Assembly (NCBI GenBank): GCA_016800925.1
Contig: JABCPU010000082.1
Location: forward strand, 1-64,000
DNA length: 64,000 bases
Direction of reading: 5' to 3'
Origin: Suillus spraguei
Taxonomy: Eukaryota; Basidiomycota; Agaricomycetes; Boletales; Suillaceae
Under the pieces are notes generated by a model. It saw nothing but the letters and a program-made list of their open reading frames with translations, ran no database searches and was not told where the DNA came from. The position numbers and the translations under genes are program-made. Positions 7,216 through 33,319 of this stretch are shown here, one piece after another (position 1 is the first letter of the stretch; every line of letters begins with the position of its first letter).

Positions 7216-7568
7216 TAAACCACTTGTAGATCTCCGTAGAACCTTAGTTCAAATATCATCTTAGATTCTGCTCATTCTGCTTCCTCCAGACTTAAGCCAC
7301 TTTCCGCTCTAAGTCATCTTCCAAGACTTGGGATTGATTCCTTTAGTCTATATCTCCGACTCTATCTTCGGATAGTCTATCTCTGTTAGTTTCTAGTTAG
7401 GAATTTGTTCTGAAGCTAGTCTTAATCTTCGTTCTACTCCCGTTTTGGATAACCTTCGGACGTATAACTTCTCCCTGAAATAAGGGGCATTACTCGGGAA
7501 AGGGGCACAGTGCACGAACTGAGGCCAAAGCCCTTCGGATCTCTCTACCTTTGAGTATGGTCTTGACA
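7216..7568 (+). repeat. LTR-A right half, split by the 26.1-kb rearrangement
   Basis: The sequence matches LTR-A in the sense direction from the TATA box (TAAACCACTTG) to the 3' end (CTTGACA at 7568). The first half of the LTR is absent here and present at 32964-33319. The five bases after the LTR (7569-7573) are GTGAC, the same as the five bases before the other half. Together the pieces make one solo LTR of about 704 bp that had inserted in an F-box gene. Confidence 0.8.
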
Positions 7569-8428
7569 GTGACCCACACCAAGGATGCAAAGGAAACCTG
7601 CCCAGTTCAACAGAACACCAAAGATATCCACGTGTTGCAGTCTTGGGAGGGAGTGACATGACACAGGGACTTGTGCAAGGGTGTCTTGATCAGACACACC
7701 AGTCAAGAAGGTGAATGGGACACTATCGAGCTCCAGAGGAGGGAGGAATTGTTCTGAATGGGCATGGTAAAAGTCGTTGGATCGCTTGAGCTTGATGAAC
7801 TCAAGGCGCGAAGCTGCTGAACCGCTTTGAGTCAGGTTGTGCAAACTGAGAAGTTGAAGTGTAGCACAAAGTGGCTTCAAAGTATCACTGATGACCTCCA
7901 GTAAACACCATCAGTCCATCTGCAGGAACAAAAAGGCAAAGAGGTGGGGGCAAACAGTCTGCATAGAGTTGGCCAGTTTCAGTGGAGGATGAAGACATGC
8001 ACCTGAGGGTAGAGACATTTAGACTTTCTTGAGCTGTACATAAGGCAAACATCTTACCTGATCAATTCACATGATTCTGGATCACGAGTGTCAATGAGAA
8101 TGTCCAGCAAGGAATGTTGCAACCGCATGATAAAATTCAACAACTGATCAAAGGGTTGTTGATGGAAGGTGAATATGTTATTGGGATGTGATTGGATGAG
8201 TGCCTTGAGATTGATACTGAGTGTTTACCATAAGGTCAGGACAGATAGCACAAGCTTTCTCCAGCGGAAGCTCATGGATGCTAGTACAGTCAGCAGAGTT
8301 ACACTTTCAGGACTGAATGCACGTCCTTCTTCAGATTCACAGTCATGTGTGGCTAATGTGAATATGTATGAGAGTAACTCCAGTGGAAGGGAGTTGATAT
8401 GACATCGTGGGACAACCTGGGAACTCAT
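7569..8428 (-). pseudogene. F-box protein gene, N-terminal part (continues at 32963 downward)
   Basis: The minus-strand frame starts at 8428 with an F-box: INSLPLELLSYIFTLA, then RWRKLVLSVLTLW, as in the large mushroom F-box families whose products recruit targets to SCF ubiquitin ligases. An in-frame TAA follows immediately after LTLW (about 8222-8224). The same frame then continues with SINLKALIQSHPNNIF up to about 8050, where a GTAAGA donor occurs. A second open stretch (7545-7880) has leucine-rich-repeat-like text (RLEFIKLKRSND, LPRLQHVDIF). At 7569 a solo LTR had inserted; across it the frame continues in 32958 and below with the typical CPLLQRLVI block. With the stop, at least one frameshift and the split, this is a pseudogene. 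Confidence 0.7.
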
Positions 8429-9000
8429 AGAATGATATTTGAGCAGTAGACAATGGCTCGAGGTAGTTGCCTATGAAGCACTGCTCAGTAGTATAGATAG
8501 ACAGGTGAACAGTGAAGGTTAGAGCAATGACAAGAGTAAGCTCAGATGAACTGATGAGTTGGATTTGACAGCAGCTATGGATCAATGGTAGATGATGTAG
8601 AAAGCTGGTGAGAGCGAGGGAAGTGCGCGACAGTACAAACTGCTTTTATGCAACAATTTGGTGGAAAAGGAGTGCAGATTGTCTCTTGGAATTATAAGAG
8701 ATCAGTAACAATGGAGTTTGGTGTGGAAAGTGAATATGGAATGCAACAATAAGAGGGTGGTGACATGTGGGATTTAAACTGAATATGTGGATAAGGACCA
8801 CCGCTGAAGTTGAATCTAAAAATCCAAGGAATAATGGAGCTAGTAATGATAACAGTACAAATATTTCATACAAGTAGGGAGGTGAACAAGTTGGGTAATG
8901 CTAACGACATTATGCATTGCAGGGATGTACATATCATGGAGGAATAAATGGCTGGGATATTGGACCATGGAGTAGGAAGATGAGGATCATTGAGGTAAAA
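8429..9000. other. No supported gene; upstream region of F-box pseudogene
   Basis: This would be the 5' flank of the F-box gene read on the minus strand. Short frames are present on the minus strand (8343-8585, 8646-8873), but they have no domain signature. No repeat termini are evident. Confidence 0.4.
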
Positions 9001-9990
9001 GAGCATCAAACATTATGAGCTCGACAGTACAAACCATCAAGCTCTGGGCAACAAAAGCTTTGTCATGTGTTGATTGTCATCATGACAAAATTCAGGTGAA
9101 TGAAGGAAACATACGACAATACAAACCATTGTGTCATAGCCAAGGGAGATGGACACGATGGTACATACCATCACGCCAGGGGAAGTTCAAGCCTGAGGAA
9201 GTAAATTACTTAGTCTAACCAAGTGCATGTGTCATGTGTGAAATGAAACCATCAATTGAGGTAATCATTATGTAAGTTATTTGGCATTGTTGGGCTCTTT
9301 GCGTCTCCAAAGTCCCAAGTCCATCATGATTAATCCTTAGTACTACTTCACTTTTCCTTGCACACAGACTCGACAGTTTGTATTGCCAGGCTCATCGTTA
9401 TAGGGGTCCTTCTGTATGCTTGCTTGCTTCCCTACAGCATGACTGTTTGTATGGTCATGTCCCCACCTTGAATGTACCAAGTCCCTCATTAATACCTGGC
9501 TCAATGTCTCCGATTGTCTTCCCCTTCTCTACATGGCATGACTGTTTCCATGGTTGTGTACATCTAGTTTGGGTTAATGGGGACTAACTTGGGCCATTCT
9601 CAACCATTGGACTTCACCACCCTACATGAGACCGCGACCTGCTCCAGTCTCAACCATCAATTCATGTCCCTGCCTTTCTTTCCCAATTTCACTGCCCTGA
9701 ATGCATTGAGTTCCTCATTTCTCCCTGGGTTTGACATCTCTGATGGTCTTTTCTCCTCTCCATGCGATATGACTGTATTACCATCATGTCTGCGCCTTTC
9801 TCATCAACGTTCCAAGTCCTTTGCTACACTCCACACTGCAGCATCAAGCACCAGACGCTGTCTCACATATTTGTCCATCGGCACTCAAGCGGCTTTGCAC
9901 AGACTTCAGAGTGGATGTGTGCATGTCACCAACCACATGATTTCAGTATAGTGCAGGGTGGTTTTGCATTCATCCTATGCATACAATGAG
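9000..9990. repeat. Dispersed unknown repeat, copy 1
   Basis: The stretch shares several blocks with 30590-31560. The clearest are GCTCGACAGTACAAACC / GCTCAATGGTACAAACTG followed by CAACAAAAGCTTTG; a CAATACAAAYCATTG block; CATGGCATGACT; and TCTGCRCCTYTCTCATCAAC followed by RAGTCCTTTGCTAC. Order and spacing are similar, so these are two copies of one dispersed element. No open reading frame is conserved between them. The class is unknown; internal inverted matches in copy 2 suggest a terminal-inverted-repeat or foldback structure. Confidence 0.55.
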
Positions 9991-11210
9991 TCTCCAAGAC
10001 AACCCCTACAGTCCAACGACCATAGACTTGGAAGACATTTCAGCATAATGTCAATATTGAGGTTTCCTTGTAAAGCTTTGAGTAATATTTCAATTCCACT
10101 GCGAAAGTTTCAGGAATGTCCAAAATGATGATTGTATTGCAGTATTGGATATCAATACATTACAATGTACTGTAACTCCTATGAAATGCAATATACTTGC
10201 AACAAAAAAAACCCAAATGTAAGAAATAGAGAATCATCTTCCATTCATCCTCCAGGTTCATTCTTTCCTCTTCCATCTCTAATTCCTCTCTGTATCTCTC
10301 TCTTCCACTCTTTCCCTCTTCCTCTCGTCCTTTCCTCTTCTCCTGCATCCTAGTGTCATCTGCAAGTGTTTGTGCCATGTCAGCACTTGCTGGCATGTGT
10401 GGGGCATTTGTGCATGGTGCCAGTTGCTGATTGGGTGGGATGATGGTTGGAAATGGTGGTGGCAGCATATTGGTGCATGTGGTCCTAGCTTCACATTGTT
10501 CACTTCAAAGGGGTTCCAGTGGAGTGCGCACATCACATCAATATGAATTGATTCCCCCAGAGCTCGTCCTCATACCCAATATCCTTACCACACCCCTACT
10601 ATATCCCTACTATATCATGCCTGTTTGCCAACAATATGTTACTCTTGCTGTCCACCATACACGGTTAATTGTACATGGGCAGCAGCTTTTGATTGTTTGG
10701 GAAACGGGGTATTGAAAAATAATGAGGGAACATATGAGACCAAATATTGGATAAGTATGAGTGAGTACAAGCAGAGAAAGTATCAGTGACCTTGATATTG
10801 GAGAAGTACAAGTGCAAGAAGAATAAGCGGAGACCCAGGTGCCATATGTCAGAAATAACTGCCAATATCCAGCTGATAGGGATGCTCTGGGCGGTAAAAA
10901 GTGTCCTTCAGTTCCTGCCACTCAGATGATGTTATGTTTCCAGGCCTGAGATAAACTTCTTTGACATGTTTGAAGATTCCTAGCCATGGACTGCAGCAGA
11001 GCTATATGCACATAACATTAGTTTAGCCCTCAATGTAGAGGAGAATGTCAAGAAGGGCCTACTCCACTCCTTTGAGTCCTCTGTCCAACTCTGAAACAGG
11101 TGAGACATTGACCTTGCATTTCTTGCCAGTTGAAATGTCATCATCAATGAGTGGCAAATTGACCTGGCACTTCTCACACTCCTTCAAGGCCAACTGTGAG
11201 TAATGTGCTT
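9991..11210. other. No supported gene; pyrimidine-rich tract near 10240-10345
   Basis: No reading frame here has a recognisable domain. The plus strand carries a strongly C/T-rich run of about 100 bp (10240-10345), which makes the minus-strand frame at 10279-10468 rich in Glu and Arg by composition only. A minus-strand frame at 10610-10921 might be an old coding remnant belonging with the F-box-like sequences upstream, but nothing specific supports it. Confidence 0.4.
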
Positions 11211-12970
11211 TCATTCAACTTCCCGCATTCTCATTTTTTTCATGCAGAAACTTCCAGCAAAGAGAAAGGCTACTTGTGTCTCATGAGACTCAAACAATGA
11301 AGGGGATGCCAGCGGCGACACCATTAAAAAACTATGAATGCCAGCATTGCCCAGCACAGAAGTTCCCAGCATGGCCCCAGGTGTTGGATGACTCAATGCA
11401 TGTTGAGTAATATCCAGGATTGCAGACAAGTAATTGGGAGCGGATGTCAGAGATTCCTTGTCAAGGTGCAATTTGAGTGTTTGAATGTGTAGAGGCACAC
11501 AAACTATGTCTAATAGAGACATGAGGTACCACAGCGGTCCAGCAAGGACATGTAAGCTATGTAAAGGAATAAGAAGGGTATTTGTTTTCTGCATAAGATG
11601 ATGATGATGATGATCAATGCATCAACCATAAAGCCAAAGCTGGTGAATATCATGTTGCGGCAAGAACTCGACAAGAGCAGGAGTTGGACACTCAATGTCA
11701 ATGGACAAGAATATAAGCTGCAGGAGATGAAAGGTTGCGCATCAACACTGCTGTTAAGACCATACTCAAAGGGTAAATGATCCAAAGGGCTTTGGCCTCA
11801 GTTAGTACACTGTGCCCCTTTCCCGAGTAATGCCCCTTATTTCAGAGGAGAGATATACGTCCGAAGGTTTGGAAGTGGTCACATGATGGATCTCGACGTC
11901 CAAAGGTATTGGATATGACATGTCCAAAGGTTATCCAGAACATGGGGATGGAACGAGGAATAAGGCTAGTCTCGGAACAAGTTCCTAACTAGAAACTAAC
12001 GAAGGTAGACTACTCAAAGGTAGAGATACAGACTATAGGAATCAATCCTAAGTCTCGTAAGATGACTAGAGCTGGAAGTAACTCAAGTCCGGAGGAGCAG
12101 AATGAGCAGAATCTAAGATGAGTAACTAGCATGGATAATCAACAAGTCCGGGACCAAGGGCTATGTACGATGTATAACGGAAGTCTATTAGTAAGTGCAC
12201 AGTGGATCAATAAGCACAAGTCAGAAATGAGACATAGGTAACAGATCAATAAGCAGGAGGGAAATATACCTAGTCAGAATACCCGGAGACAGGAGGATTG
12301 CCGAAAGGAGGTAGATGCAGATGTCCACAAGGGAGTTAGAGTGCAAGAAGTAGGAACTTTCGGATAGGAGATCCGGATAGGATCTGTGGACTGGACGGAA
12401 GCAGGATCGATCTGATCTGATCTGAGATCAGATGTATGGAATATGACAACTGCCCACTGAAGGGCACTCAATGAAGTATGTGTGATGCTGAGGTCAGTCA
12501 ATGAAGAGTTTTGCAATGATGAGAGGGTGAGAGAAATCATGGATCAGGGGAAAAATATAGGTGAGTTTGCATGCAATGTTTGAAAATTACATCTGGGAAC
12601 AGCAGCCAAGTCAGGAGAATCAGCGGAGGATATGCATGGTAAGATGCCTCCCAATCTGAGAACCGAAGACTCCTGCAGCTTGAGTCTCATATGGACTGAA
12701 ACAGAGGTGCAAAATCTCTGAGCATTTCACCATCTGTCATGATAGAGACAAAGAACACTGCATGCTTTCAAATGACTCCAAGAAACTGAGGAGCACCTTG
12801 AGGTGGTGATCATCTGCATCAAGGAGATTGCATTGCAAATACTTTGGCATATGAAAAAAGGTTGTGTGCCTGTACAGGAGCAGGGTGAGACAGGCTTGGG
12901 TGCTGATGAGCAGGACTTGTTATCAAACTGCAAGCCTACAGAACGAAAGTAGAGAGGTGGGATCATCAAA
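11211..12970 (-). pseudogene. F-box/LRR-type gene remnant 2, interrupted by a solo LTR
   Basis: The minus-strand text resembles the C-terminal part of the mushroom F-box/LRR family seen at 7569-8428. At 12727-12850 are PKYLQCNLLDADDHHLKVLL and FLESFESMQCSLSLS (read in a frame different from the longest ORF). At 12453-12540 is NSSLTDLSITHTSLSALQWAV. At 11640-11740 comes LSIDIECPTPALVEFL, and at 11211-11594 a long open stretch with HSLHVLAGPLWYL and IQTLKLHLDKESLTSAPN. The LTR at 11752-12448 sits between ALQWAV and the continuation LMRNLSSPAA. The F-box itself is not found upstream, where the tyrosine-recombinase element begins. Several frames are needed; the gene is dead. Confidence 0.5.
11752..12448 (-). 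repeat. Solo LTR-A with target duplication ACTGC
   Basis: On the plus strand the copy runs TGTTAAGACC to ATATGACA, so it is in the same orientation as the gypsy LTR at 4170. The five bases before (11747-11751) and after (12449-12453) are both ACTGC, a perfect 5-bp duplication. It is shorter (697 bp) than the 768-bp reference because of internal deletions near the middle. A perfect duplication with no internal region between means the copy arose by LTR-LTR recombination of a full element. Confidence 0.9.
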
Positions 12971-13039
12971 GAAAGCTTACCCCTTGGCTCAGGGGAAGAC
13001 CCGTCTGTTATCGTGGCTATCTACCTTATAATGCTCAAT

Positions 13040-13575
13040 GAATGGGAGTCAGAACAAAATCAGGCTGGACAAAGAGCAGCGGGCACATCCAGAGTACGAC
13101 GTTCAGCAGAACCAACGTCTGATCCCACACAGATTGAATAAGAGTTTACTGCAGAGGATAACAGGAGTCAACGAGTCAGCATCGAGCCAGGAGAACCTGC
13201 TCAGAAACGACCTAAACTTGACTTTACCTGTCTTGAACTCAAATCAACAGTTAATGAAGAACCATCCAGGCCCCTATCAGCAGACCTCAGATAAACTGTC
13301 CGCATCTTACAAAATTGGGCACAGGATCAGAAACAAGCCAAACTCAAACTCATGTATCATGAACGGAGTCCAGAGTTTTATGAATCTGGATGGGCTGATA
13401 TCATTGCCAGACAAAGCCTCAATCTTGATGCCATCCACACCATCATCACTACATCAAGATCAGTTGATAAACATACAGAATCCATCGGAAATGTTGAATT
13501 TACCTACAGAGTCTCTGAAACGGCCACAAAGAAAATTACCAAGCAAGGCCACTGGAATGCTGCATGGAACAGAGC
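13040..13575 (+). pseudogene. gag: Gag of the tyrosine-recombinase element, 5' part
   Basis: The coding frame is the one containing the open stretch at 13352-13575 (YHERSPEFYESGWADII, then NLDAIHTIITT, then QGHWNAAWNRA). Upstream the same frame is broken by TAA codons at 13139 and 13292 but otherwise reads as a hydrophilic Gag N-terminus. The pattern W..A...A..FPxR..EL, common in Gag of basidiomycete tyrosine-recombinase elements, is completed beyond the solo LTR that begins at 13576. The product would be the nucleocapsid or RNA-binding protein. Confidence 0.75.
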
Positions 13576-14972
13576 TGTTAAGACTGTACTCAAGGGGTGA
13601 TAGATCTGAAGGGCTTTGGCCTCAGTTTGTGCACTGTGCCCCTTGTCTGAGTAATGCCCCTTATTTCAGAGAGGAGATATATGTCCGAAGATCTGGAAGG
13701 AGTTGCGTAGCGGATCCGGACGTCTGAAGGTATCGGATATGGTATGTTCAAAGGTTATCCGGAGTGTGGGGATGGAAAGAGGACTAAGGCTAGCTTCGGA
13801 ATGGATTCCTAACTAGAAACTGACAGAGGTAGACTATCCGAAGATAGAGTCGGAGATATAGACTATAGGAATCAATCCCAAGTCTCGGAAGATGACTTTG
13901 AGTGGAAAGTGACTCAAGTCTGAAGGAAGCGGAATGAGCAGAATCTAAGATGATATTCGAACTAAGGTTCTACAGAGATCTACAAGTGGTTTATATACAG
14001 TAAGTATCTAAGATGTTATGACTGGGATGGCGTCACCAGCGACAGTGAAAAGACACAGCTGGTCTGCTGGGAAGTTCTTACAATGTCCAGAAGAGGACAA
14101 GGTGAAAGTACAAGGAACGCGTTCCGAGTACGATCAAGGGTTCAGCCTCAAAGACAAGTCTAAGAGGTTCTATGAGAATAGAGACTAAGGCTAAGGAGTG
14201 CTTAGACTTAGAGACGACTTAGGTTGGAGACCTAAGTGAAGGAGATTCCAGGTAAAACCCAGTAAGATTAAAGTAAAGAATCTACTACAAGTACACTGTG
14301 CTTATATAGGTACATATGTGCGCACAGACCAGGTAACTGTGGGAATATAAGTGCGTATCCTAATGAGGAAGGCATATATTGTACAAGCATGTTGAAACAC
14401 ATGAGTAAGAGATGAAAGCACGTGTTTAGCATACGTGTATGCTAAACTGGCTGAGTCCGAGTATAGAGTCGTGGGAGTTCATGACATCACATAATATGAC
14501 ATGTCAACGACGTATAGTTGAATCGTATAGTCATGTGATGTCTGATGGAAGTGGAAGTGTCCGAGCAATAAGCTCACTATCACGTGATATACAAGAATAG
14601 AAGGAAAATGAATAGGGGCACGTACGACTGTAACATAAGACGGATAATCAATGAGTCCGGGACCGAGGGCTATGTACAAAGTGTAACAGAGGTCTATTAG
14701 TTAATGCGCAGCGGATCAGTAAGCACGAATCGGAAATGAAACACAGGTAACGGATCAGTGACACAGGAAGGAATTATACACAGCCAGAGTACCGGAAACA
14801 GGATGAGTGACGAAAGGAGATAGGTGCAGTTATATACAAGGGAGATAGAGTGCGAGAAGCGAGCACATTTGGATGAGCAATCCGGACAGGATCTGTGGAC
14901 CGGATGGAAATAGAATCAATCGGATCTGATCAGATATGGGTGGATCTGGGATCAGAAGTATGGTATATGACA
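13576..14972 (-). repeat. Solo LTR-A with target duplication AGAGC, itself carrying a nested LTR
   Basis: The copy starts TGTTAAGACTG at 13576 and ends TATATGACA at 14972, flanked by AGAGC at 13571-13575 and 14973-14977. Without the 622-bp nested insert and its 5-bp duplication it would be about 770 bp, equal to the 768-bp reference. It interrupts Gag of the tyrosine-recombinase element between codons for NRA and SQAL, and the frame is restored when the LTR and one duplication are removed. Confidence 0.92.
14014..14635. repeat. Solo LTR-C nested inside LTR-A, target duplication TAAGA
   Basis: Inside the LTR-A copy, 622 bp begin TGTTATGACTGG and end GACTGTAACA, with TGTTA/TAACA as terminal inverted bases. 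The flanks are TAAGA at 14009-14013 and 14636-14640. The uninterrupted LTR-A sequence (TATCTAAGACGGATAATC) is recovered when the insert and one TAAGA are removed; the copies at 15853 and 32964 show this empty site. No second copy of this family is in the window. Orientation is unknown because no coding region is linked to it. Confidence 0.92.
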
Positions 14973-14977
14973 AGAGC

Positions 14978-15425
14978 CTCACAAGCTCTCAAATTCGCTT
15001 TCCCATTCTGACAGGCTGAACTTAATGCCTACTCAGAACACATTAATGAACAATTTGATCAACAATCGGAAAGCTGCCATGAATGAGTCATCAGATATGA
15101 CAAATTTGTCAGATTCAGAGTTGGAAACACTCGCAGGTATGAATTGTCAGACTTTGAGTGCTTCAGGGACATCTACAGCTCTCACTTCTCCACTGGAGGA
15201 AGACTGCATAATGAAACAGAGGAATCTAACAAATCCACTGGAGGAGGTCGAGAAAATGTCACCAAACGAGAACCCTGTCATAAATGGAATAATGGTGAAT
15301 GCACACACAGTGCAGCCACCTGTCGTTACGCACACGTCTGCAATGTCAAACAAAATGGACGTATCTGTGCCCGTCGTCATGTCAAAACAAAACATCATGA
15401 GGACGGGAACACTAAATCAGCCTGA
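14978..15425 (+). pseudogene. gag: Gag 3' part with CCCH-like finger
   Basis: Directly after the AGAGC duplication the Gag frame continues (SQALKFAFPF, then QAELNAYSEHINEQF), with TGA stops at 15009 and 15084 where Arg or Trp codons would be expected. It goes on with YELSDFECFRDIYSSHF. The end is a finger-like cluster, CHKWNNGECTHSAATCRYAH followed by C, and a His/Lys-rich tail, ending at 15425. Cys spacing (C-x7-C-x6-C-x3-H) resembles the Gag fingers of related mushroom elements. The overlapping frame at 15025 onwards becomes the real coding frame only after about 15420, where the RT ORF begins. Confidence 0.75.
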
Positions 15426-17640
15426 AAAATACCTTAAACGTCCACGTTTTCGCCAAGGGCTGATTTGGTCGCCAACTGATAATTCATTTAGCCCAACCAC
15501 ACGTTCTACAGATGATGCAGCCCGCACAGTATGCAATCATCCAGATCTCTTCAAAATAGTAACACCAATCAACGTTGATTGGTTTCAAGTTCTCCTTGCT
15601 GACCATCCAAATCAACCTTTTGTTTTGTCGGTGTGTCAAGCCTTACGTGAAGGTTTTTGGCCATGGGCAGATGCTTTGGATGAGTCATATCCCTCTATAA
15701 ACGATAACTCAATGCACACCTGTGCAAAATCAGCGGATCAAGAAAAGTTTATTGAGGAACAGCTACGAGAAGAAATATGTCTTGGATGTGTATCAGAGTC
15801 TTTTGGTCCAGATTTATTCCCTGGAATGTACAGTGTGCCAATGCATACCGTCTGTTAAGACTGTACTCAAGGGTAGAGAGATTCGAAGGGCTTTGGCCTC
15901 AGTTCGTGCACTGTGCCCCTTTCTCGAGTAATGCCCCTTATTTCAGGGAGGAGTTATTCATCCGAAGACCCGGAAGGAGTTGCGTGACAGATCCGGGTGT
16001 CCGAAGGTATCGGATATGGTACGTCCGAAGGTTATTCGGAACGTAAGGAGAGGACAGAGATTAAGGCTAGTTTCGGAACGAGTTCCTAACTAGAAACTAA
16101 CGGAGGTAGACTATCCGAAGATAGAGTCGGAGATATAGACTATAGGAATCAATCCTAAGTCTTGGAAGGTGACTTAAAGCGGAAAGTGGCTTAAGTCCGG
16201 AGGAAACAGAATGAGTAGAATCTAAGATGATATTCGAACTAAGGTTCTACGGAGATCTACAAGTGGTTTATATACTGTAAGTATCTAAGACGGATAATCA
16301 GCAAGTCCGGGACCGAGGGCTATGTATGAAGTGTAACGGAAGTCTATTAGTTAATGCACAGCGGATCAGTAAGCATGAATCGGAAATGAACACAGGAAAC
16401 AGATCAGTAACACAGGACGGAAATATAAACAGCCGGAGTACCGGAAGCAGGAGGAATGACGAAAGGAGATAGACGCAGATATACACAAGGGAGTTAAGGT
16501 GCGAGAAGTGAGTACATTCGGATGGGTGGTCCGGACAGGATCTGTGGACCGGATGGATATGGAAACGATCGGATCTGGTCGGATATGGTCGGATCTGAGA
16601 TTAGAAGTATGGTATATGACACCGTCCCTAAACCCAATTCGGATAAACTATGCCTTGTAGTGGATCACACAGCAGGAGAATACTTGCTGAACTCCATGAT
16701 TGATTCAGATGCCGTTAGAGGCACCAAACTTGACGGTTTGCATTCGCTTGGTGCTTCCCTGCTGCAATTTCAACAAGAACATCCTAATGATAAATTGGTC
16801 CTTTTTAAATCAGATGTTTCTCAAGCTTTTCGGCGGTTACCTATGCACCCGCTGTGGCAAACCAAGCAAGTGCTAACGGTACAAGGTCAACGTCATGTGG
16901 ATTGTTGCAATAACTTTGGAGGACGAGGATCCCCTAAGACTCGTCTGTTACAACTCTGGGACAAGCTCGGAATTCCTCATGATCATCCCAAATAACTTTT
17001 TGGTTCAACTCTGACCATTATTGGTTTCGACGTCAACCCTAATGCTATGTCTGCTACTTTGCCGAGGCACAAAAAGAATGAGTTGATCAAGCATTTACGT
17101 GACTTTGCCTGTAAAAAGTATCATTGGACGCTTCACGAATATCAACAGCTTGCCGGATGGTGCAAATGGAGTTTCAATATTTTCCCTTTGCTCAAACCAG
17201 GACTTTCGGCTGTGTATGAGAAGATTCGCGGGAAAATTCAACCACGTGCACGCCTTCATGTCAACAATCCTATCATTTGCAAACTCACTTGGATGGCTGA
17301 TCATATGGAACATTTACCTGGGCTCATGTTTTACAAAGGATCAATCATCTTTGCCTGCGGATGCTCCTAAAAACACCATCTTTTTCTTTGAAGCATTGGC
17401 GGTTTGCTCCGCAATTCATGCAATCCCTAACATGACAGAAGTCCCACCCCGAATGCTCATACACCAATAACACAAATACAGTGTCGATGTTCAACTCTCT
17501 CCGTGCGCATCTTCCTTATAATTCCATCATGCTCTCGGCAATGGATGTTCTACTCGAGTATGAGGTAAACTTACGTGTAGAGCACATTAGTGGATGTGAG
17601 AATATGGTTGCTGACGCACTCTCATGTTTTCAAAATGAAA
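15420..17640 (+). pseudogene. Reverse transcriptase-RNase H of the tyrosine-recombinase element
   Basis: The open frame from about 15420 to 15852 encodes the RT N-terminal region (RPRFRQGLIWSP, then CLGCVSESFGPDLFPGMYSV). After the solo LTR it continues in frame as PKPNSDKLCLVVDHTAGEY, then FKSDVSQAFRRLPMHPLW and NNFGGRGSP. The next words are TRLLQLWDKLGIPHD, so the stretch that should carry the YxDD catalytic motif is deleted. A TAA occurs at 16993-16995 in HPK*LFG. The connection segment (GFDVNPNAM, QLAGWCKWSFNIFPLLKPGLS) and an RNase H-like part (FFFEALAVCSAIHAI, VSMFNSLRAHLPYNS, VADALS) follow in shifting frames. It cannot be enzymatically active. Confidence 0.8.
15853..16621 (-). repeat. 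Solo LTR-A with target duplication CCGTC
   Basis: The copy runs TGTTAAGACTG to TATATGACA (769 bp) and is flanked by CCGTC at 15848-15852 and 16622-16626. Removing the LTR and one CCGTC fuses ATG-CAT-ACC-GTC to CCT-AAA-CCC and restores the RT reading frame. Orientation is the same as the gypsy LTR at 4170. It is the least eroded LTR-A copy in length. Confidence 0.93.
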
Positions 17641-17715
17641 GAGTTTTGGAGTTGGCACCAGATGCCAGCTTTTTGATTTCGAACCCCCTCGGAATGTGCT
17701 GGGGGCAGCAAAAAA

Positions 17716-21175: not shown

Positions 21176-21237
21176 CCAATAAGTTGATCACAGGATGAGA
21201 TCTACTTCAAATTTCTTCAAAAAAATTATGAAATTAT

Positions 21238-22390: not shown

Positions 22391-22752
22391 GGTGTGATGA
22401 GCTCGACTCGGAAGGAGCTGAAACGGTGGCTTAAACCTTAGATTGTTGGTGGATAAATACAGTAGCTAGTTTGTGTGTACGCTACACGTTTGTCAGTGGG
22501 TTCCCTGTGCAATCAAGTTAGATTGTACTTCGACGACATGTCTGAGACTTGCGGATAACTCAACAAATCCCTCTATTTTCGACTCACTACTTGTGATAGA
22601 CATCCTACGCTCACTTACAGCATTGCAAGATGATCAAGGACAGAGTGCAACGAGATTCACCTCGATGATGCAGTCAATCAAGCATGGCCCATCAACTTGA
22701 TTTCTGGCAAATTCCCACCTGCCTGTCAGAACTTAAGAAAAGACTTGATAAG

Positions 22753-22912
22753 GATGATGAGAATGTCTGCAAGACGCTGAAGAGTGAGACCATCTGCAGT
22801 ATGATATGTCCTCAGGGAAGTCATAAAAGGAGAGGTGAGATCGTATATTTAGGGAGGTGAAGCAAATATGCAGATGGTCTCACTCTTCAGCATCTTGCAG
22901 GCATTCTCATCA
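22753..22912. repeat. Inverted repeat beyond the NPR3 3' end
   Basis: GATGAGAATGTCTGCAAGAC-GCTGAAGAGTGAGACC-ATCTGCA on the left (22753-22798) faces its complement on the right (22869-22912), with only a few mismatches over about 45 bp and a spacer of about 70 bp. A transcript through it would fold into a long hairpin. It may be the remnant of two head-to-head repeat ends. Neither arm belongs to the NPR3 coding sequence, which ends at 23040. Confidence 0.7.
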
Positions 22913-23039
22913 TTTTCAACAAGGATAGCAGGGTCCTTGCAAACACACTGCCAGGATAGTGAGTGTCTTAGTTGCACTTCCAAATACTCAAGAGTCACAA
23001 ATATGTGTAGCCTGACGGTCCCAAGGGCAAATAATATAG

Positions 23040-25529
23040 TCACGCAGGATGCAAGAAAGTTTGTAGCTACGTAGTGCGTCAGTGTGGGGCAATCGACAAA
23101 ACACGGAACGTACATATTCTTCATAATGATGCAGCACCTCTCGAAGTTGTTTGCGTGATATCTCTGCTGTGTAGAGGATCTCGTCATCCGTTCGCTTACC
23201 GTCAAAGTACTGATTGATCCTGATAATGTGTCAAAGGGATGTGAGTAAACAAGCAAATCGAAAACTGACAGTGCAAATCGTCTTGCGATATATTCATCCT
23301 TCCCCTCCGACATAGCTGCCAACCACTTTCGCTCCAACGGGCTCGCTGTTCCCGGATCGCTAATCATCGAAGGCTCAAGGGTATCCTCAGATGATCCCCA
23401 ACCAACATTTTCCTCTCCTGAATCTTCTGCAGATATTTCGTCAAAGACATCTTCAGCTTCTTCAAGCAGTATCGACTCTGATACATCGCTGGGCTTGCTC
23501 TGCCCCGAGTCCATAGACCGTCTCGAATATCGCCTAGCAGCTTTGGGCGAAAGTGACAACCAAGGCACGTTTATTCGTGGATGCTCGTGTGCATCACCTA
23601 CGCCATAGTCGCCCCTGCGGCTACTTCTGCGACGCTCGCGAAGACGGTGACTCGCCAGTCGCTCTAGCTTCCGTTCATGTGCTTGTCTGACATGGACTTT
23701 GAGCTCAGCAGTGGCAACTACACGCACGTGCAGATGCAGTGTAATAAGGAGGTCCCGTTTCAGCATCCAAACCACGACTTCGTGGTATAGAGATATGAGA
23801 TCCTTGGACTGCACGACTGTTGCGAAAAAGTGGTTATCGGCCTGCTTAGAATTAGAATTAGAGATCGTGGCCATAAGCACAGGGAGGGGTAAGATAGATG
23901 GCTGTGGGAAATCACGTTTGAATTCACCAGCAAGAATTGCAAGCCTGCATTCAAATTAATTGATTACAAATTTGAGGAACTATATTATACACTAACGGTT
24001 TATCAAACTTAGGAGCAATCGAAAATATAGTCTTCAATCCATTGTGAACTGTGTCGACAATCTTGGCCCGTCGGTGGTGAACTAACCAGCGAACAGTTGG
24101 ATATACCTGGGAATGTAGGTCCCAATCAAGTAAACTCGCCATGTCTGCCAGTCTGAAAACGCTGTCATCTTGAATATCAACGATACGAAAGTAGACTCAC
24201 GATAATGTAACAGAAGCGGTTTCAAGAAACTTGATCAAGCCCTCTGCCAGGCTTCTCTCTTCAGCGTGCACGTGCGACCCTCTCAAGTTCATATACGGAT
24301 CCAGTTCCTGGTCAGTATCAAGGAGAAGTAAACTTTTCCAAGGCACAAGGGATGGCAGGCGCCACCCAAAACTGAGCTCGCGGCCCCATAGCTGAGAATC
24401 GGTTTGATTCTCGAGACGGCCCACGAATCCGAGTTCAAATTCCTCTTCGCTGTGCAATAGGTGGTCCAGATAAGGAGGGAGCTGCAGTTCGAGGGGGAGA
24501 TCATTGAGAGTGATGTGGGCCATGTTAGATGATTTTATAGCATCATAGAGATTTTTCATTGCCGTAGCAATGGATGACACTCGTTGTGCGTGCAATGCAA
24601 AGTCAGAGAAATGCTCTCCTAGACATGCATGTCAGCAATATGTACTCCGCAACTGCCGGGCGCGACTAACCTTTGACTATATACTCTGTTTCAAGCGAAC
24701 CAATTGCATCGCACTCCAATTCTACAAAGTTTGACAGGACCTGTTCTTGGAAAAGCACGGCAGTAACAGTAAATGCAATTTGTTCGTAGATCGTGTCGAA
24801 ATATCTTGCAACATTCCCCGAGGCTGATGATGATGGGTCTGGTAAATCGAACACAAGGACAAGATGAAACATGTGCAGCCACGAGCTTTTGGGCGTCGTG
24901 GTAGAGTGTGCATCTCCACCCAGAGAGACTTCAGAGATATCTTTGTCTGGTAGATTGGATTCCCGATGTCGAGACCCACGACCTCGTGAGCCAGTTTTGT
25001 ATCTCTCTGGCTTGAAACGCCATATGCCATCTGGTTCTGCACAGACGGGATGCCCAGCGAAGACGAGGTTATCAATGACGAGCTCAAATTTCTGGTGGCA
25101 TAGGTGTCTCTGCGGGCATAGCATTCCAGCTAGGAATTGGGCAGTGTAGTCAAACAAACATTGGTACTCATTCGCGACGGGGTCGATTTCTCTTCGCTCA
25201 TCGTTGCAAGGAGAGTCACGACCTGATGCTGGAATAGCGGAACAGGAGAAAGACATGGACCTGTCGCGACTCTCGGCGGGTCTCCTCCACGCGTAGTCAT
25301 CTATATTGACATCTACGGCACCCTCCATGTGCGTTTCGGCTAAGGCATTTGAATTGTCTAAGTAATGTGATGCACGCCAAGGGTTGTCTAACTCGAGACC
25401 ATCGACAGGTGGACGTGGACGGGAGAGTCTGGGTCTAGTATTCTCCACGAACGGTGGCCATCGATGAACAACGTTTGGCCCCTTTGCTGACGAGGTTACC
25501 AGTAAAATTGCCAGGAGTGTTTCAGCCAT
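23040..25529 (-). CDS. NPR3: Nitrogen permease regulator 3 (NPR3/NPRL3), multi-exon
   Basis: The product belongs to the NPR3 family, a subunit with NPR2 of the SEACIT/GATOR1 complex that restrains TORC1 at the vacuole when amino acids are scarce. The first exon (25529 to about 24673) opens with ETLLAILLVTSSAKGPNVVHRWPP, the NPR3 longin-domain signature, and has the CHQKFELVIDNLVFAGHPV block. Exon 2 carries HFSDFALHAQRVSSIATAM and continues to DDLPLELQLPPYL-like text; exon 3 covers the SQVYPTVRWLVHHRRAKIVD segment. The last large exon holds a winged-helix-type end (YFDGKRTDDEILY, ISRKQLREVLHHYEEY) reached through a 52-nt intron with a GTCAGT donor. A short final exon LQTFLHPA ends with TGA at 23040. 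All splice junctions keep frame. It is the only apparently intact host gene in the 26.1-kb block. Confidence 0.88.
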
Positions 25530-26550
25530 GCGACAAAAAGGTTATGAAGCCCTTTAAGAGCAGGTAAGTAAGTCAGAGACCAGTGATAAGGTAGACGTCA
25601 TGCGGATTCGGTTTCCCAATACTATCCGTTACGCTCATTTCGTGACGGTCCACTAATTCGTGATTTTTGTCTACAGCACTCAATTTTAAAGCAATTACTT
25701 AGCTACTTCACTGGGTATGTTCTACATATTATACTAGCATATTCCAAGTGAAACAAAACAAAACCATTCAGAGATGGTGAAGATCATGTTTTCAGCGTGA
25801 CGCCTGCAAAAATCCGTCACCTGCCTTGCTGCCAATGTCGGACATTAGATTTAACAGCTGCAATCCATGACACATCGGGGTTATCGATATTTAGGACAGG
25901 TTTATATGTTGTGCAAAATGTGAAGAAAATATTTGAAATTCAAACTAACATAAAACTAGGTACACAACTTCAAAATTTGCCAGTGTTTTATGTGTAATCC
26001 AAAATATCAAGCATCCACAACCATATTTCCACAGACAATATGTCAACAAATATAAGAAATATGATCAAAACTTATATGCTTGCTTCAATTTAAAGTTTAA
26101 TCTTCACATAAAATTTCGGACAAAACTTAGATGGGACAATATACTTGCCAATATATCAAGTTTTGCCTGACAATTAGACGTCCCTCAAAATTTTAAGTGT
26201 ATGCCGGTGACAGAATGTCATGACAAAACTTCAAGTTTTGTCTGCAGATGAAATAAATCATCTGATCATCGCCTGCCCACTGTTCACTCATGGCCTGAAT
26301 TCGTTACCTGGTGCAACATGGCAAATTTTCACAACAAGACAGACCAATGACTGGAGATGCAGATGGTGTTTGAGTCTGAGAAGGCATCTGAGAGAGAGTA
26401 CCTGGAATGCTAGAAGCACTTGTAGCAGGTGATGAGTGAGATTTGTCAAATGGTCTGAGAGTGAACAAAACAACTCAAAGCAACTTTGTCGAGGACTGTG
26501 AATGCAAGTGAGCAGAGTGATTTTGAATGACAGTCTAAATGATTGTCTGA
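25530..26550. other. No supported gene; AT-rich upstream region of NPR3
   Basis: The first few hundred bases should hold the NPR3 promoter (minus strand). The rest is AT-rich with no supported gene. A near-perfect palindrome GACAAAACTT-C-AAGTTTTGTC at about 26222-26242 and related AAGTTTTG motifs at 26157 and 26120 hint at an old repeat, but I could not find its ends. Confidence 0.4.
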
Positions 26551-26556
26551 CAAGGT

Positions 26557-27912
26557 ATTATGTCAGAAAAAACCTAAGGGCCATTACAATGCCGCTGGAT
26601 TACAAGTTTGGCTAGTGCCTTGAAAGGCGCCTTATAAGACCTTACAAGGCATCAAATGACTACAATTTGGTACTGTAGCGGTGTCTTGCTACTTAAGGGT
26701 CTTATATAGAACATGTATACAGTGACAACACAACTGTACAGGGATAAGACTTCTTGCTAGTCCTTAAGTACACGGTCTCCGACTTTTCTACTTTGTGAGA
26801 GATAATGTGCTGAGTTCTTGGGTGGGTATCTTTCAATGGTCTGTCTCTTGAAGATCTGTGTGAAAGTGTTGAGTTTGGGATTTGAAGTAGTGTTGTATAG
26901 TAGGTATGTTTCACCCTAGTAGATCGTGTTTCAACCTATAAAAGTCTGTTTCAACTTTGTCGTGTTCTCCGAGTGCGTGTCTCCCCTTACGTTGAAAGAG
27001 AGAGTCTTTAGATCTGTATATGTAAAGCTTAGTCTGAGAGCTGTTAGATATTATATAGTCAACCCCTGTAAGGTAGTATATAATGCAGAGTAGATATAGA
27101 TTTCTTAGTCTTACTTCAAGGCTAGATTGCCTGCACTTTTAGTTCTTATGGTTCTCACATGGTCAGAGACAAGAGTTTCAAGTGGGAAGCTGTTATTACA
27201 GGTGAAAATGGACTCCTTATATACCTTTTGGAGGCCCTGCTTACTAAGCATGATTCTACACATAGATTGGTAAGAAACCTTCCTATTTAGTGTGTTGAGT
27301 CAGCTTATTTTACTAAGTACATTATAAATACAGTGAATTCTTACAAAGCATGACAAAAGGCTGTTGAGTCATCTCAGGGATTGGTCATGCAAAAGCTGAC
27401 AAACCAAGCCTTTTGGGTGAGCTTACTCATCCTTTATACTAAGTAGATCACAAATAAAGTTCAAATCTTACAAAGATCTTACAAAGCATGATAAATCATG
27501 ACAAAATATGATGAGTCAAGTCTGAAAGTCTTATAAATCATCAAATTTGAGAATAGAAAGTTCTGGAATAAAATGAAAGGGGATAGAATATGAAGGAACT
27601 AAATAAAAGTAAAATATATAAAAGACAATCAAAGTGTGAGCAAAAATATAGGACAACTTAGAGATATAGTATGCACTGTTGGATCTTTCCTATCACTCCT
27701 TTTTATATATTAGCTTGGTATGAATCTCATACCATGTATGACAGTGGGCTGCTTCAATGTAAGGTTGTCAAAAGGACCCTTATAAGTGCCTTATAATGTC
27801 CATTAAAAGATTATTGTACCCAATTATAATACGATAAAATGACATGTACCAACTTGGCCCTCAAAAGGTATTATATGGTATCTGAAGGCCGGAAACTTTT
27901 TTCTGACATAAT
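26557..27912. mobile_element. Non-autonomous element with 16-bp terminal inverted repeats
   Basis: Both ends carry ATTATGTCAGAAAAAA in inverted orientation (26557-26572 and 27897-27912), and a looser match continues inward (GGCC, CCTTATAAG motifs). The interior is AT-rich and non-coding, with repeats of CTTACAAAGCATGA between 27340 and 27500. No clear target duplication is visible next to the ends, so the mobilising family is unknown. Length is 1,356 bp. Confidence 0.65.
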
Positions 27913-27995
27913 GATTGAAGAATGTTAAGATGGATAAGATTTAAGTAATTGTGCAAATCACTGTCCCGAGTGCGATTGAGTTATTTGACAAGGGC

Positions 27996-28252
27996 AATGT
28001 CACAACCCACAAACGAATTAACGCAAGGGCAGAGACTAGGACTCAAACTAAGGTTATCACAAGAGAAGAGAAAGGAGCAAGGACGTCTTGGATTGCTACT
28101 ATGTAGATACAAGAGGTTTGAACTAAAGAACTACTACAGCAAAACTAGCTAACTATATACACATATTGAAACTGAGATGTAAACTGAGTTTGAAACTACT
28201 AGCCAATCATAAAATAGAAATGAGAATCATACGATGTGATAGTTGTGACATT
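27996..28252. mobile_element. Short element with 11-bp inverted ends (MITE or solo LTR)
   Basis: AATGTCACAAC at 27996 is repeated as its exact complement GTTGTGACATT ending at 28252. The inner part starts TGTCACAACC and ends GTTGTGACA, so it could also be a small LTR (253 bp) with a TATATACA box inside. The flanking 5-mers do not match, so neither reading is proven. Confidence 0.5.
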
Positions 28253-28680
28253 GTTATGACATCATATTCTAGAAGATACTAAGATCATGTGATACTATCT
28301 TATCTTATCCGATAGCATCATAAAAGATCTCTTCTTCTTCATCAGGAAGTTCAGTTATAGAAGCAGATATGGGGATTTCAATAGGATTTGGGTTTGTCTT
28401 AGCACTGGGTTTAGACGCTTTAGGAAAATTGAGAAAGGAATAATGATTTGTGTTTGGAATTCGTGACAGGCAATGATCGAGGACATAACATCAGTCTAAG
28501 AGGATAGATAATACAGTTGTAAAGCACAATGTACATAGCAAAAAAATAAGAGACTAGGTACAACTACACATCAGAGTCTGTCCAAACTAAGCAAGACATC
28601 AGCAAAGCATGAAGGAAGTTGGTTGATGGAGTGTTCTTACCAGGCATCTTTTTTAACAGGAATTTGTAACATACCACTTT

Positions 28681-28926
28681 TTACATTGACTCAGCAGACA
28701 AACAACCAATGTTCAAGCCAGATGCAGTCCAGGCCTGCGGTCGAGTCCAGGAGACTTTCTTTACACTCCCATTGCCTGGATAATCAAACATAAGCACTGC
28801 TGAGGTTGCATATGCTAGAACAAACTTACTTTTGTCCACATAATACATTCCACAGATAAAATCAACTTCTTCCTCCACTAATGAGTCGTCAAGGTGACTT
28901 TGGTCATGGACTGAGGTGTGATATGG
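28681..28926 (-). pseudogene. Unrecognised ORF, 3' part, split by solo LTR-B
   Basis: A minus-strand frame of about 82 codons (SVHDQSHLDDSLVEEEVDF, then FICGMYYVDKSKFVLAYATS, then GNGSVKKVSWTRP) ends with TAA at 28681. Removing LTR-B (28927-30174) and one copy of the duplication joins it to an ATG-containing stretch at 30180-30212 (MSFQTSSPINTP). The text has a beta-propeller-like feel (short hydrophobic strands), but I do not recognise the family. It is probably part of a larger, decayed gene. Confidence 0.4.
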
Positions 28927-30174
28927 TGTTACAACCATGCAAGACTGGGCTACTAAGAAGTCCTGGTCTTACATGGGGTTGTACCAGAGGGACGGAAAGT
29001 CGAAGGGGCTTGGCCTCAGCTCATACGCTGTGCCCCTTACCCGAGTATGTGCCCTTAATTTCGGATGAAGTCCAAGGGGGAGTTATAGTGAAGTCCAGAT
29101 GGAGTCCGGATGAACTCTGTAGGACAGAATAGCTTGATAGAGCTCCAAAGGACTTCCAGATGAGTGCTGGAATGCGCCAGAACTATTTCCGGATGGTAGG
29201 GAGTAATGGTAAGACTACTAGAACAAGTTCCAAGTAGAATGAATGAAGGATGGACTCCTGGACCAAGTCCAGGGCAGGATAGGAGCAAAGCTCTGGAGGG
29301 AAAGATGATCCATAGATGTCGGAGGATAGGATAGGATAGATCCGGAGAACCAGAGGTCCGAAGGTCCAGAGCTCAGAGGAGCGGAAGAGTGGAGGGGCGG
29401 ATGATTGGATGATTGATGATCAGATGAGCGTAGCTCTATGGATCTTGGGGGATGTGTTGACTACTAGAGAGGAGTAGGTCCAGATATGGTGTAGAGGTAG
29501 TATAGACTACTCCAGACAAGGTCCGGAATAGAAACAGATAGGATAAGACTACCACAGGTAGAGTCGGAGGTGAATCAGATGAGAGACAGGAAATGGACGA
29601 AGTCCGAAAAGGATATAGGACAAAGGATCAAGGCTCTGGCCTAGGGAATGATCCCATAGGTCTGAGTCGGAAGCTTACAAGGGCCAGAGCCCAAGTGCGA
29701 GAACGGAAACAGATTTATATAGACATGGTAACAAGATACAGAAGTCAAAGGAATATACAGAAAGTATAGGAGAAGGCATACAATGTTCAGACTGGGGTCT
29801 GCAGGAAGTTTGTACTACAAGTTTATATACTGTAGGTAGCATGCCAGAAGGCAAGTAAGGATAGTCCGAGGCTATGTCTGAGGCATTGCAGAACACAAGG
29901 CTATGAACTCAGAAATAAGACTTGTACGAAATATCTTATCAAGACGGATGTCAAGATAACTGAAGCCAGAGGTGCAGAGATAACCGAAAGCGGACACAGG
30001 TATTAACCTAAAAGGAGTAACGTGCAGGTGCGTGGGAATAGTTTTGGATATGAGCATGGATCGGATATGGACTGGATCGGATATAGATATGGATGGATGG
30101 ATGAGTGGATTAGATATGTGAGTGGATGGGTGTTGGATGTCACTGGATTGGACCTGAATGTACGGTATATGACA
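28927..30174. repeat. Solo LTR-B, 1,248 bp, target duplication TATGG
   Basis: The sequence starts TGTTACAACC and ends GGTATATGACA, with TATGG on both sides (28922-28926 and 30175-30179). It shares with LTR-A a box of about 60 bp near one end (GGGGCTTGGCCTCAG, GCTGTGCCCCTTACCCGAGT) and the ending GTATATGACA, so it is a related but distinct gypsy family. By analogy with LTR-A the sense direction is minus, but no coding region is attached here. No internal region remains, so it formed by LTR-LTR recombination. Confidence 0.9.
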
Positions 30175-30589
30175 TATGGGGTGTTGATTGGGCTAGATGT
30201 CTGGAATGACATTCTAAATTTAAACAAGGGTAGATTCACATAATACAGTGCTCTGTCATCACAGAAAAGGGAACTTAAAGTCAGGAAGGCAAGTGGGCAA
30301 TGAAAACAATGTTAGTTGTGTGACTTCGCACTTAATTAGTTCAAGGACTTTCAGGACTTTCAGACTTTCAGTACACTTTTGAGGACATTAAGACATTGGA
30401 CACTTTAAGGACATTACCATGATAGGCATTGTTTACATTTATTTACAAAAACTCGTCCATAGTCAGAGTTCATAGTCTTATATGCCTTGTGCATTGACTC
30501 TGAACTCTCAGGTATGACACATTTATATAGATACTTAATATATGTGTGCATTGACTCTGAACTCTCAGCTTGACTTATAATAAACAACA

Positions 30590-31560
30590 CAACAATAGTT
30601 CCAGAACAGAGATACACATGACCGTACATACAGTCATGCCATGTGAATGAGGAGAAGGCCATCCACTGGGGACATTGAACTAGCGAGTAGCAAAGGACCT
30701 GGTCACTCTGAAAGTTGGTAATGAAATCAGGAGGACAATGATCATGTGAGCTCAATGGTACAAACTGTCGAGCTCCGGCCAACAAAAGCTTTGTATGTCC
30801 ATGTCAATGATCATCCTAAGGAAGTTGCATGTGAATGGAGGAAAGACACAACAATACAAATCATTGCACCAGGGGGGGGGGAAGGAAGTTCTGACCAAGT
30901 GCATGTGCAAAATTATTATGTATGTCAAAGTTCCTGGAAAGTCCATTCATCCTTCATTTGATCAGACCAGCTACTTCCCTGTACCTGTCTGCAACTGTAA
31001 GTCACTCCTGTTGGCCACCATACACATTTAATTGCTTCCCATCTTTCAAGATAGCTCAATTCTCATGTCCATGTCCCTTGGCTACAACACAACAATTTGT
31101 ATTGTCAGGTCTTTCCTCCATTCTCATGCAACTTCATCAAGATGACCATCAACACATGAAGAAATGCCAGTCGCCTGGAGCTCGAACAGTCTGTCCTGTT
31201 GAGCTAGTAGTTCCTGATGACCTTTCATCTCCATTATTGTCTTCCTCAATTACAACCACATGGCATGACTCAAGTATGTCTGCACCTCTCTCATCAACAT
31301 TCTGAGTCCTTTGCTACTCCCTCGCTCGGTGCCCTGATGGCCTTCCACCTCATCCACAGAGCATGATGCAGGTACTGTGGGTACATGTATGGAAGGCAGC
31401 AGTGAGTTATTTGGTGCACTGGGCGATACCTATGTGGTTCACAACTCCTTCCCTGGGTCATACCACCCAGACTATCTCAGTCAGAATTGACTGCCCACCC
31501 CAGCAGACTCCTCCTCAGGTCTTGACTGCGATTAACATATATATATTATTCTGTAGTTCA
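30590..31560. repeat. Dispersed unknown repeat, copy 2
   Basis: This is the second copy of the element at 9000-9990, with the same ordered blocks. In addition, part of its left side (CATGCCATGTGAATGAGGAG, AAGGCCATC, GAGTAGCAAAGGAC, 30640-30700) matches in inverted orientation the right side (GTCCTTTGCTAC, GATGGCCTT, 31305-31350). The copy therefore has internal inverted repeats, like a foldback element. A run of at least 10 G occurs near 30871. No coding capacity is recognised. Confidence 0.5.
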
Positions 31561-32262
31561 TAATATATCACATGCCCTTGCATGTGAGCGCCACTGTAAA
31601 TTTCTTGACATAAGTAATAATACTGCGATCAAGCTTTTAGCGATGAAAGTGGTGATCTGAGCAAGCTTGCGAGCATGGATAAGTCATAATATGAATGTAC
31701 TGGGCCAACCACATCCTGTACTCAGCACTCCTGTCCACCCTCTCCTTTGATAGCATGTGGTGAGGTCAAGCAGAGGGACACTAGTAAAGCAGGGGGACAG
31801 CAGTTTCGAACCCTACAAAACCAGCTTCAATTTTTGCTTCATCTTACATCAAGTAGCCAATGCCTCACTGTGCGCACAACTGTGTTGTATTCAATCTCTA
31901 TCACAATTATAACTCATTCAATACAACTGAGTGTTTACATTCATGTGCAAGCTCGATTTCTGCTGCATGGAGCCAACCCCTATTGCACTCAAACTATATT
32001 TTGTTTCAATGCGGTTCTTTGAAATCAGCAATGTACCATGCACGCAGACTTGGATGATATTGTTGCAGAACAAGATAGACAACAGCATACTACATATCTA
32101 TGTACAAAAAGAAATCTTTTACAGTGGACGTAAACTTGAACAGAATTTCCTTTTATAAGATGAACCGTGCAGCAGCAATGACTTGTAGTCTATACAATGC
32201 GGGATGCACTACATGTTGCAACAAATAATTACCCACCCATTCCCGATCACCATGCAGCCCAA
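31561..32262. other. No supported gene
   Basis: Short frames on the plus strand (31747-32022, 31860-32057) overlap each other and show no domain. The stretch lies downstream of the F-box C-terminal part on the minus strand and may contain its last exon (for example near 32160-32215, just after a possible AG acceptor), but I cannot confirm this. Confidence 0.35.
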
Positions 32263-32963
32263 TCATAGTAGTGACTCACTGATATTGTTGGGTAAGATAT
32301 ATGTAGAAGGACTTAAGTCTTTGATGTCTCCCATCAACACAAGGTCTATGTTCTTAAGTTGCTTCAGCTTCAGGAACTCTGGTTGTGTGAGAGGGGAGAC
32401 CAGAATAGACATGATGGCATGGTAGGGTATAGTTGTATCTGCATCCAGCAACAGAGCTACCAGCGCATTTGGTGTGTGAAGTAGCAACAGATCATGCAGC
32501 TTAGAGAAAGCAGACATAAAGATGCTGAATGCAGTGACACTTGCATGAACCATATTGAGCAACAATTGCTGAAGCTTTGGAAACAGCATGCTAGTTCTGC
32601 TGATGGCTGCTGGGTGCTCGCTGAAGCCAGTTGCACAGTAGCTGAGGAGACTTTCAATGTTTATGCCTGTTTTGCTGGCATTTTGTGGGACGACTGGATT
32701 TATGTCCTCAATGGAAAGTGTGATAAGGTTTGGGGCATCAAGGCGACTGAGTAGCATAACCAATGAATCCATCTCAACATACCCCACATACCCCAAGTGA
32801 CATCACACTGCAACAGTGATGTGGCTGCAAAAGGACTGGCCCAGATTCCCTAATGACAAGTCTTTGCAGCAGAGGACACACATTGATTATTGCTGAAAAC
32901 TGATAAATGTTGGCCTGAGAGTTCTGTCATGGTACAAAAGCTCCAATGACTGAATGCAGTGAC
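32263..32963 (-). pseudogene. F-box protein gene, C-terminal LRR part
   Basis: On the minus strand, immediately after the GTGAC flank of the half-LTR, the text CIQSLELLYHDRTLRPTF continues the frame of 7569-7880, and a shifted frame gives CPLLQRLVIRES. A long open stretch (32263-32796) follows with LRR-like segments such as LFPKLQQLLLNMV and LKLKQLKNIDLVLMG, ending at a GTGAGT that could be a donor. This is the substrate-side half of the F-box protein whose start is at 8428. In the present order the two halves are about 24 kb apart and in the wrong sequence, explicable only by the rearrangement. Confidence 0.65.
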
Positions 32964-33319
32964 TGTCATATACCATACTTTTAATCCCAGATCCGACCAT
33001 ATGCGATCAGATCCGATCGATTCCATTTCCGTCCGGTCCACAGATCCTGTCCGGACCACCCATCTGAATGTGCTCACTTCTCGCACCTTAACTCCCTTGT
33101 GTATATCAGTGTCTATCTCCTTTCGTCATTCCTCCTGTTTCCGGTATTCCGGCTGTGTATATTTCCGTCCTGTGTCACTGATCTGTTACCTGTGTTCATT
33201 TCCGATTCATGCTTACTGATCCGCTGTGCATTAACTAATAGACTTCCGTTACACTTTGTACATAGCCCTTGGTCCCAGACTTGTTGATTATCCGTCTTAG
33301 ATACTTACAGTATATAAAC
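32964..33319 (+). repeat. LTR-A left half, split by the 26.1-kb rearrangement
   Basis: The sequence begins with the sense start of LTR-A (TGTCATATACC at 32964) and matches it to the TATA box (CAGTATATAAAC), then stops matching at 33320. The flank before it is GTGAC (32959-32963). The missing remainder of the LTR is at 7216-7568, followed by GTGAC. The two halves share only the 4-5 bases AAAC/TAAAC at the break. Confidence 0.85.

Follow-up and report, generated by a model that had tools for sequence, protein, structure and literature searches.

How did a 26-kb block carrying the gene NPR3 come to lie between two direct copies of the same five bases? The block spans positions 7,216 to 33,319 of the window, by which we mean the first 64 kb of contig C1058 (209,978 bases) from the ectomycorrhizal mushroom Suillus spraguei (Boletales). 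An earlier, sequence-only reading took it for a circular DNA that was opened at one point and inserted into a coding sequence, relocating NPR3. We find that block and flank are one locus, because a retroelement copy and an F-box-like gene, here called gene K, are each divided between the two. It is probable that the 26-kb region was rearranged in place by two inversions, either sequential or joined in one repair event, and did not arrive as an imported circle.

We searched the genome assembly of this fungus (86,217,890 bases in 1256 contigs) and scored adjacencies in fetched loci. Ninety loci were fetched and six, being the window itself, were removed, leaving 84 others. These were mostly chosen by a match to one piece and include repeat fetches, so that the set serves as an adjacency test and not as a genome-wide census. 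Two repeat-saturated searches scored the best 40 of 976 and the best 39 of 1972 candidates, and are weak on absence. The genome searches revealed neither an empty allele of the locus nor a contig duplicating it, and showed no near-identical second version of the flanks or the left block end. A literature search combining Suillus spraguei, transposable elements and genome gave no match; no other search addressed whether the locus has been published.

The two ends of the block

The ends of the block hold the two halves of a solo long terminal repeat (LTR) and, beyond these, the two parts of an F-box gene, here called gene F. P0050, a protein of Suillus subluteus, is its best relative.

7216..7220: junction J1, TAAAC; spanned by 0/84 other fetched loci
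33315..33319: junction J2, TAAAC; spanned by 0/84 other fetched loci
32964..33319, + strand: 5' half of the solo LTR, from the LTR alignment
7216..7568, + strand: 3' half of the solo LTR, from the LTR alignment
32959..32963: left copy of the LTR target duplication, GTGAC
7569..7573: right copy of the LTR target duplication, GTGAC
7574..8428, - strand: N-terminal part of gene F (P0050 residues 1-148 and 135-235, 63-66% identity; internal stops)
32302..32958, - strand: C-terminal part of gene F (P0050 residues 233-461, 64% identity; internal stops)

Three marks described in the sequence-only reading are borne out here: TAAAC is directly repeated at both edges, the edges are halves of one LTR parted at its TATA region, and the outer GTGAC copies belong to a single insertion. 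Placed end to end, the halves align to the LTR copy at 15852-16621 (- strand) with no indel at the join. Eighteen fetched loci span the restored join and two more reach its left side only. The reassembled repeat has the TG...CA ends and matched 5-bp target duplication of a solo LTR. We read the GTGAC pair as the mark of one insertion because the three other solo LTRs in the block also have matched 5-bp duplications (GCAGT, GCTCT and GACGG, read by eye). Two unrelated LTRs at the edges are ruled out by the seamless join, the shared duplication and the split gene F. LTR-LTR recombination as the closure of a circle was likewise rejected, since the other three solo LTRs examined in the block keep matched duplications and none of them looks like a closing recombinant. 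Outside the block, the LTR copy at 4168-4938 has no matched duplication. It adjoins a gag frame at 3277-4002 (- strand, PF03732) and is probably one end of a fuller LTR retrotransposon.

Gene F is a stronger mark than the four on which the sequence-only reading relied, and it is independent of the LTR. P0050 crosses the LTR site to the residue, with LGVG before it and HCIQSLEL after it. Among 57 proteins from one search, 55 match the window and 43 match both block ends; in all 43 the order and strand are as expected, allowing an overlap of up to 30 residues. The two parts also lie side by side in paralogs on contigs C309 (a 465-aa frame), C326 (a 446-aa frame) and C36 (separate neighbouring frames). 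The right-end protein has three paralogs in the genome at 44-47% and no close second copy there. Since the LTR, its duplication and gene F are all split between the ends, the block is a circular permutation of the ancestral order. Diverged repeats near the two block ends (8546-9945 and 30614-31246) occur together on contigs C379 and C381; these repeats may be F-box-type genes that lay in a cluster round the LTR site in the ancestral order.

The retroelement and gene K

The sequence that the block interrupts (7091-7215 plus 33320-33653) is itself repeated and has uninterrupted copies elsewhere in the genome. Nineteen of the 20 alignments shown cross the J1 site ungapped within the printed columns; in the twentieth, single-base gaps occur elsewhere than at the site. 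When one such copy, C483, is mapped on the window, it traces one colinear element running from 33653 to 33317 (- strand), from 7219 to 7091 (- strand) and from 12959 to 19112 (+ strand). The pieces meet at C483 positions 466/467 and about 593-595, so one retroelement runs through both flank and block. Gene K is cut at the same two switch points, at 7090/7091 in the flank and at 12957/12958 in the block. Two of the five segments named below, d and e, appear among these features:

33320..33653, - strand: start of segment e, retroelement 5' end (C483 down to position 128; 96% identity)
7091..7219, - strand: segment d, 129 bp of the retroelement 5' region (C483 594-466; 93% identity)
12959..19112, + strand: remainder of the retroelement (C483 593-4849; contains two nested solo LTRs; two short C483 stretches missing)
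13575..14973, - strand: nested solo LTR, duplication GCTCT, carrying an insert of about 622 bp
15852..16621, - strand: nested solo LTR, duplication GACGG
6511..7090, + strand: K1, first part of the F-box-like gene K (DNA identity to paralog C525 81% over 7013-7090 and 67% over 6511-6771)
12691..12957, - strand: K2, second part of gene K (75% identity to C525, where it adjoins K1)
7091..7093: junction J3, CCA, the reverse complement of TGG at J4
12958..12960: junction J4, TGG

K1 and K2 are adjacent in C525, the 1 of the 84 fetched loci that spans the restored K adjacency, and two loci on C1211 have open frames that match the C525 frame across the K1-K2 point. If TGG/CCA is counted a single time, the restored site is as long as its counterpart in C525 (by eye). 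A single inversion of 7091-12957 restores gene K and the retroelement together. The J3/J4 pair, missed in the sequence-only reading, is thus part of the same rearrangement as J1/J2. A possible third junction at 12691/29659, considered because C525 has both stretches side by side, was set aside: the 29.5-30.1 kb region belongs to a high-copy repeat, and the match may be explained by a further copy of this repeat in C525.

These two divided sequences change what the insertion target is and what became of NPR3. The 127-codon frame that had been proposed as the target does exist and is interrupted, but 72 of its codons are the first frame of the retroelement and the other 55 are antisense F-box sequence beyond 7090. 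The NPR3 gene region (22849..25529, - strand) contains two frames that match Pfam PF03666 above cut-off, and no second copy was found in a search of the genome assembly. The block was said to have relocated this gene. With the retroelement and gene K common to block and flank, the two are one locus, and therefore NPR3 was not imported.

The retroelement may be of a tyrosine-recombinase type. DIRS/Ngaro-type elements carry split direct or inverted terminal repeats. The later frames of the element resemble reverse transcriptase (RVT_1, E 0.0005), RNase H (RT_RNaseH, 0.025) and tyrosine recombinase (Phage_integrase, 0.009), all below the Pfam cut-offs, and a DIRS/Ngaro assignment is a lead, not proof. 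Ngaro elements have been described from Agaricomycotina (PMC3783388). We found no internal self-repeat in the 5-kb C483 stretch. Another copy, on contig C1 (locus L065, C1:39000-47500), is flanked by direct repeats of 346-355 bp at 943-1297 and 7910-8255 of that locus (96%), which may be terminal repeats or a pre-existing repeat. The insert of about 622 bp (14014-14635) within the nested LTR at 13575-14973 sits some 20 bp upstream of the same TATA region at which the split LTR is parted. The LTR pieces around the insert overlap by 5 bp, which suggests a target duplication.

Segment order and the histories that produce it

The four junctions divide the region into five segments, with d (given above) now lying between a and b:

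to 7090: segment a, ending in K1
7220..12957: segment b, 5738 bp, inverted relative to the ancestral order
12958..33319: segment c, about 20.4 kb, inverted relative to the ancestral order
from 33320: segment e, the retroelement 5' end onward

With a minus sign marking inversion, the ancestral a b c d e has become a d -b -c e in the window. Every ancestral adjacency has an uninterrupted counterpart elsewhere in the genome: among the 84 loci, a-b is spanned by 1, b-c by 18, c-d by 44 and d-e by 44. None of the 84 spans a derived junction. With a and e held fixed, enumeration gives a minimum of two inversions and one unique shortest path, in which c d is inverted first and b -d second. A single inversion restores each of the two derived junction pairs; the enumeration contains no linear transposition that yields the window order in one step. 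The locus thus has four exactly reciprocal junctions with intact ancestral counterparts, and two inversions suffice to produce them.

In the ancestral state, gene K would have been intact over a-b, gene F and its solo LTR would have lain over b-c, and the retroelement over c, d and e. A first inversion, of c and d (20.5 kb), would have joined the LTR TATA region to the retroelement at position 466/467. A second, of b and the already inverted d (5.9 kb), would have joined gene K to the retroelement at about 593-595, 129 bp off. The ends would have been joined by way of short matches or short staggered breaks, with no net loss. NPR3 would have been flipped and shifted by kilobases only. Whether the inversions were sequential or parts of one multi-break repair, we lean towards one error-prone episode, because the breakpoints lie 129 bp apart and four private substitutions are packed beside J1. 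In a single multi-break repair the 129-bp spacing is unremarkable.

The junction sequences bear on how the ends were joined. Both pairs repeat a short stretch (TAAAC at one, TGG/CCA at the other), and the restored sites have neither lost nor gained bases relative to their intact counterparts. The sequence-only reading assumed that the exact 5-bp core was already present in the target. Other copies of the retroelement have TGAAG there instead of TAAAC, in 26/26 places compared, some of which are evident duplicates with the same flanks, and in 19/19 genome-wide matches to a pattern that allowed for TAAAC as well (a set that overlaps the 26). Nor does this finding lend support to a site-specific recombinase acting on an exact 5-bp site common to target and circle. 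At J1/J2 the duplicated stretch is the LTR version, and TGAAG stands on neither side. Short staggered ends with a partial match (T-AA-) may have been joined and then repaired to one version; alternatively, the retroelement may have mutated to TAAAC before joining. The 464-bp retroelement fragment differs from the majority at 14 positions. Ten of these differences are common to 1-8 of the 26 copies each, and the remaining four occur in 0/26 and fall within 13 bp beside J1. The chance of four private substitutions being packed in this way, estimated post hoc, is about 5e-05, and their position suggests local damage.

Several points count against the double inversion. Two inversions with breakpoints 129 bp apart are a coincidence unless they are linked. 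Within the genome searched, no allele with the ancestral or the intermediate order (a b -d -c e) was seen, and sequence alone does not separate inversions from a circle. The four junctions are read from the assembly, and the K adjacency from one DNA-level paralog and two protein-level loci. As for the substitutions, two of the four are part of TAAAC, some of the 26 places compared are not independent of one another, and the full set could belong to a subfamily outside the sample, though 0/19 pattern matches have TAAAC.

The most serious competitor is a local circle. In this history b and c, excised between gene K and retroelement position 595, left the chromosome as a 26-kb circle that bore the sole NPR3 copy seen and returned reversed, 129 bp from its scar. 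It would have closed at J4, opened in the LTR TATA region and reinserted between positions 467 and 466, leaving J3 as the scar, possibly within one repair episode. With a and e fixed, this is the sole excision-plus-reinsertion solution in the enumeration (circle b c returned reversed between d and e), and its final order and junction pairs are those of the double inversion. The junction sequence cannot separate the two histories, because both use the same two cut-and-join pairs, in opposite order. Circular intermediates have also been proposed for region B of wine yeast (PMC3053389) and for cattle KIT (as reported in PMC3927395). The part of the sequence-only reading that stands is the circular permutation, seen in the LTR, GTGAC and gene F; arrival from elsewhere does not, since the retroelement and gene K span block and flank.

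Even as a local event, we regard the circle as unlikely. It requires that, in a genome of 86 Mb, reinsertion fell no more than 129 bp from the scar, with shared homology of only a few bases, and until then the chromosome would have lacked the one NPR3 copy seen. In the assembly we found the left block end, the right-end F-box protein and NPR3 without any close duplicate, and we saw no further insertions opened at other points. The circle explains nothing beyond what inversions explain and is less economical. Inversions are favored because NPR3 stays on the chromosome throughout and coincidence is needed only within the locus.

An assembly error that misjoined repeats is very improbable. Mobile elements do contain three of the four breakpoints, and one side of J4 is retroelement for about 6 kb. 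Moreover, the contig pairs C379/C1192 and C381/C202, which give the same or near-same matches and scores, appear to be duplicates, as if both nuclei of the dikaryon had been partly assembled separately. However, the junctions share only 3-5 bp, far less than an assembler overlap, both pairs are base-exact and reciprocal, and the repeat spans from unique to unique sequence are only about 480 bp (J3/J1) and about 690 bp (J2). Import of the circle or block from another locus, moving NPR3, has next to no probability: all four marks of the sequence-only reading are present, but both the retroelement copy and gene K are divided between block and flank, their cut ends being exactly reciprocal, and import would need two retroelement copies and two K genes independently broken at the same bases.

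Comparison with known rearrangements

Cattle KIT was reportedly relocated through circular intermediates (Durkin et al. in 2012). The double inversion that we favor for the Suillus locus has other counterparts, namely overlapping inversions with breakpoints in transposable elements. As in those cases, one inversion restores each junction pair, mobile elements contain three of the four breakpoints and the joins have short shared sequence. Unlike the usual overlapping inversions, the net result here imitates a circularly permuted insertion, and one element holds two breakpoints separated by only 129 bp.

In the accounts of wine-yeast region B (PMC3053389) and of the KIT work (reported in PMC3927395), a circularly permuted block is taken as the signature of a circular intermediate. 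In both, as in Suillus, the block is circularly permuted, and region B, as described there, also resembles the Suillus locus in having few identical bases at the joins and a site that is generally unchanged. According to the same accounts, those blocks sit on a different chromosome, or at several loci and opened at several points, whereas in Suillus we see one locus and one copy. Were the circle nonetheless true, a 26-kb ring with the only NPR3 seen would have reinserted almost where it was born.

In the double-cut-and-join model (PMC3283316), a circle that forms and is then reabsorbed can easily be mistaken for inversions in adjacency graphs. Formally these are the same two operations as at the Suillus locus. 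That model is abstract and treats synteny blocks; here we have a real locus with junctions at base level, for which a two-inversion route exists. For a local block, two overlapping inversions write exactly the same sequence as a circle, down to the base. The Suillus locus is a multi-break rearrangement inside the mobile elements of a mushroom, with no net loss of bases at the joins. Rearrangements of this kind are already known, and the Suillus case offers a clean caution.

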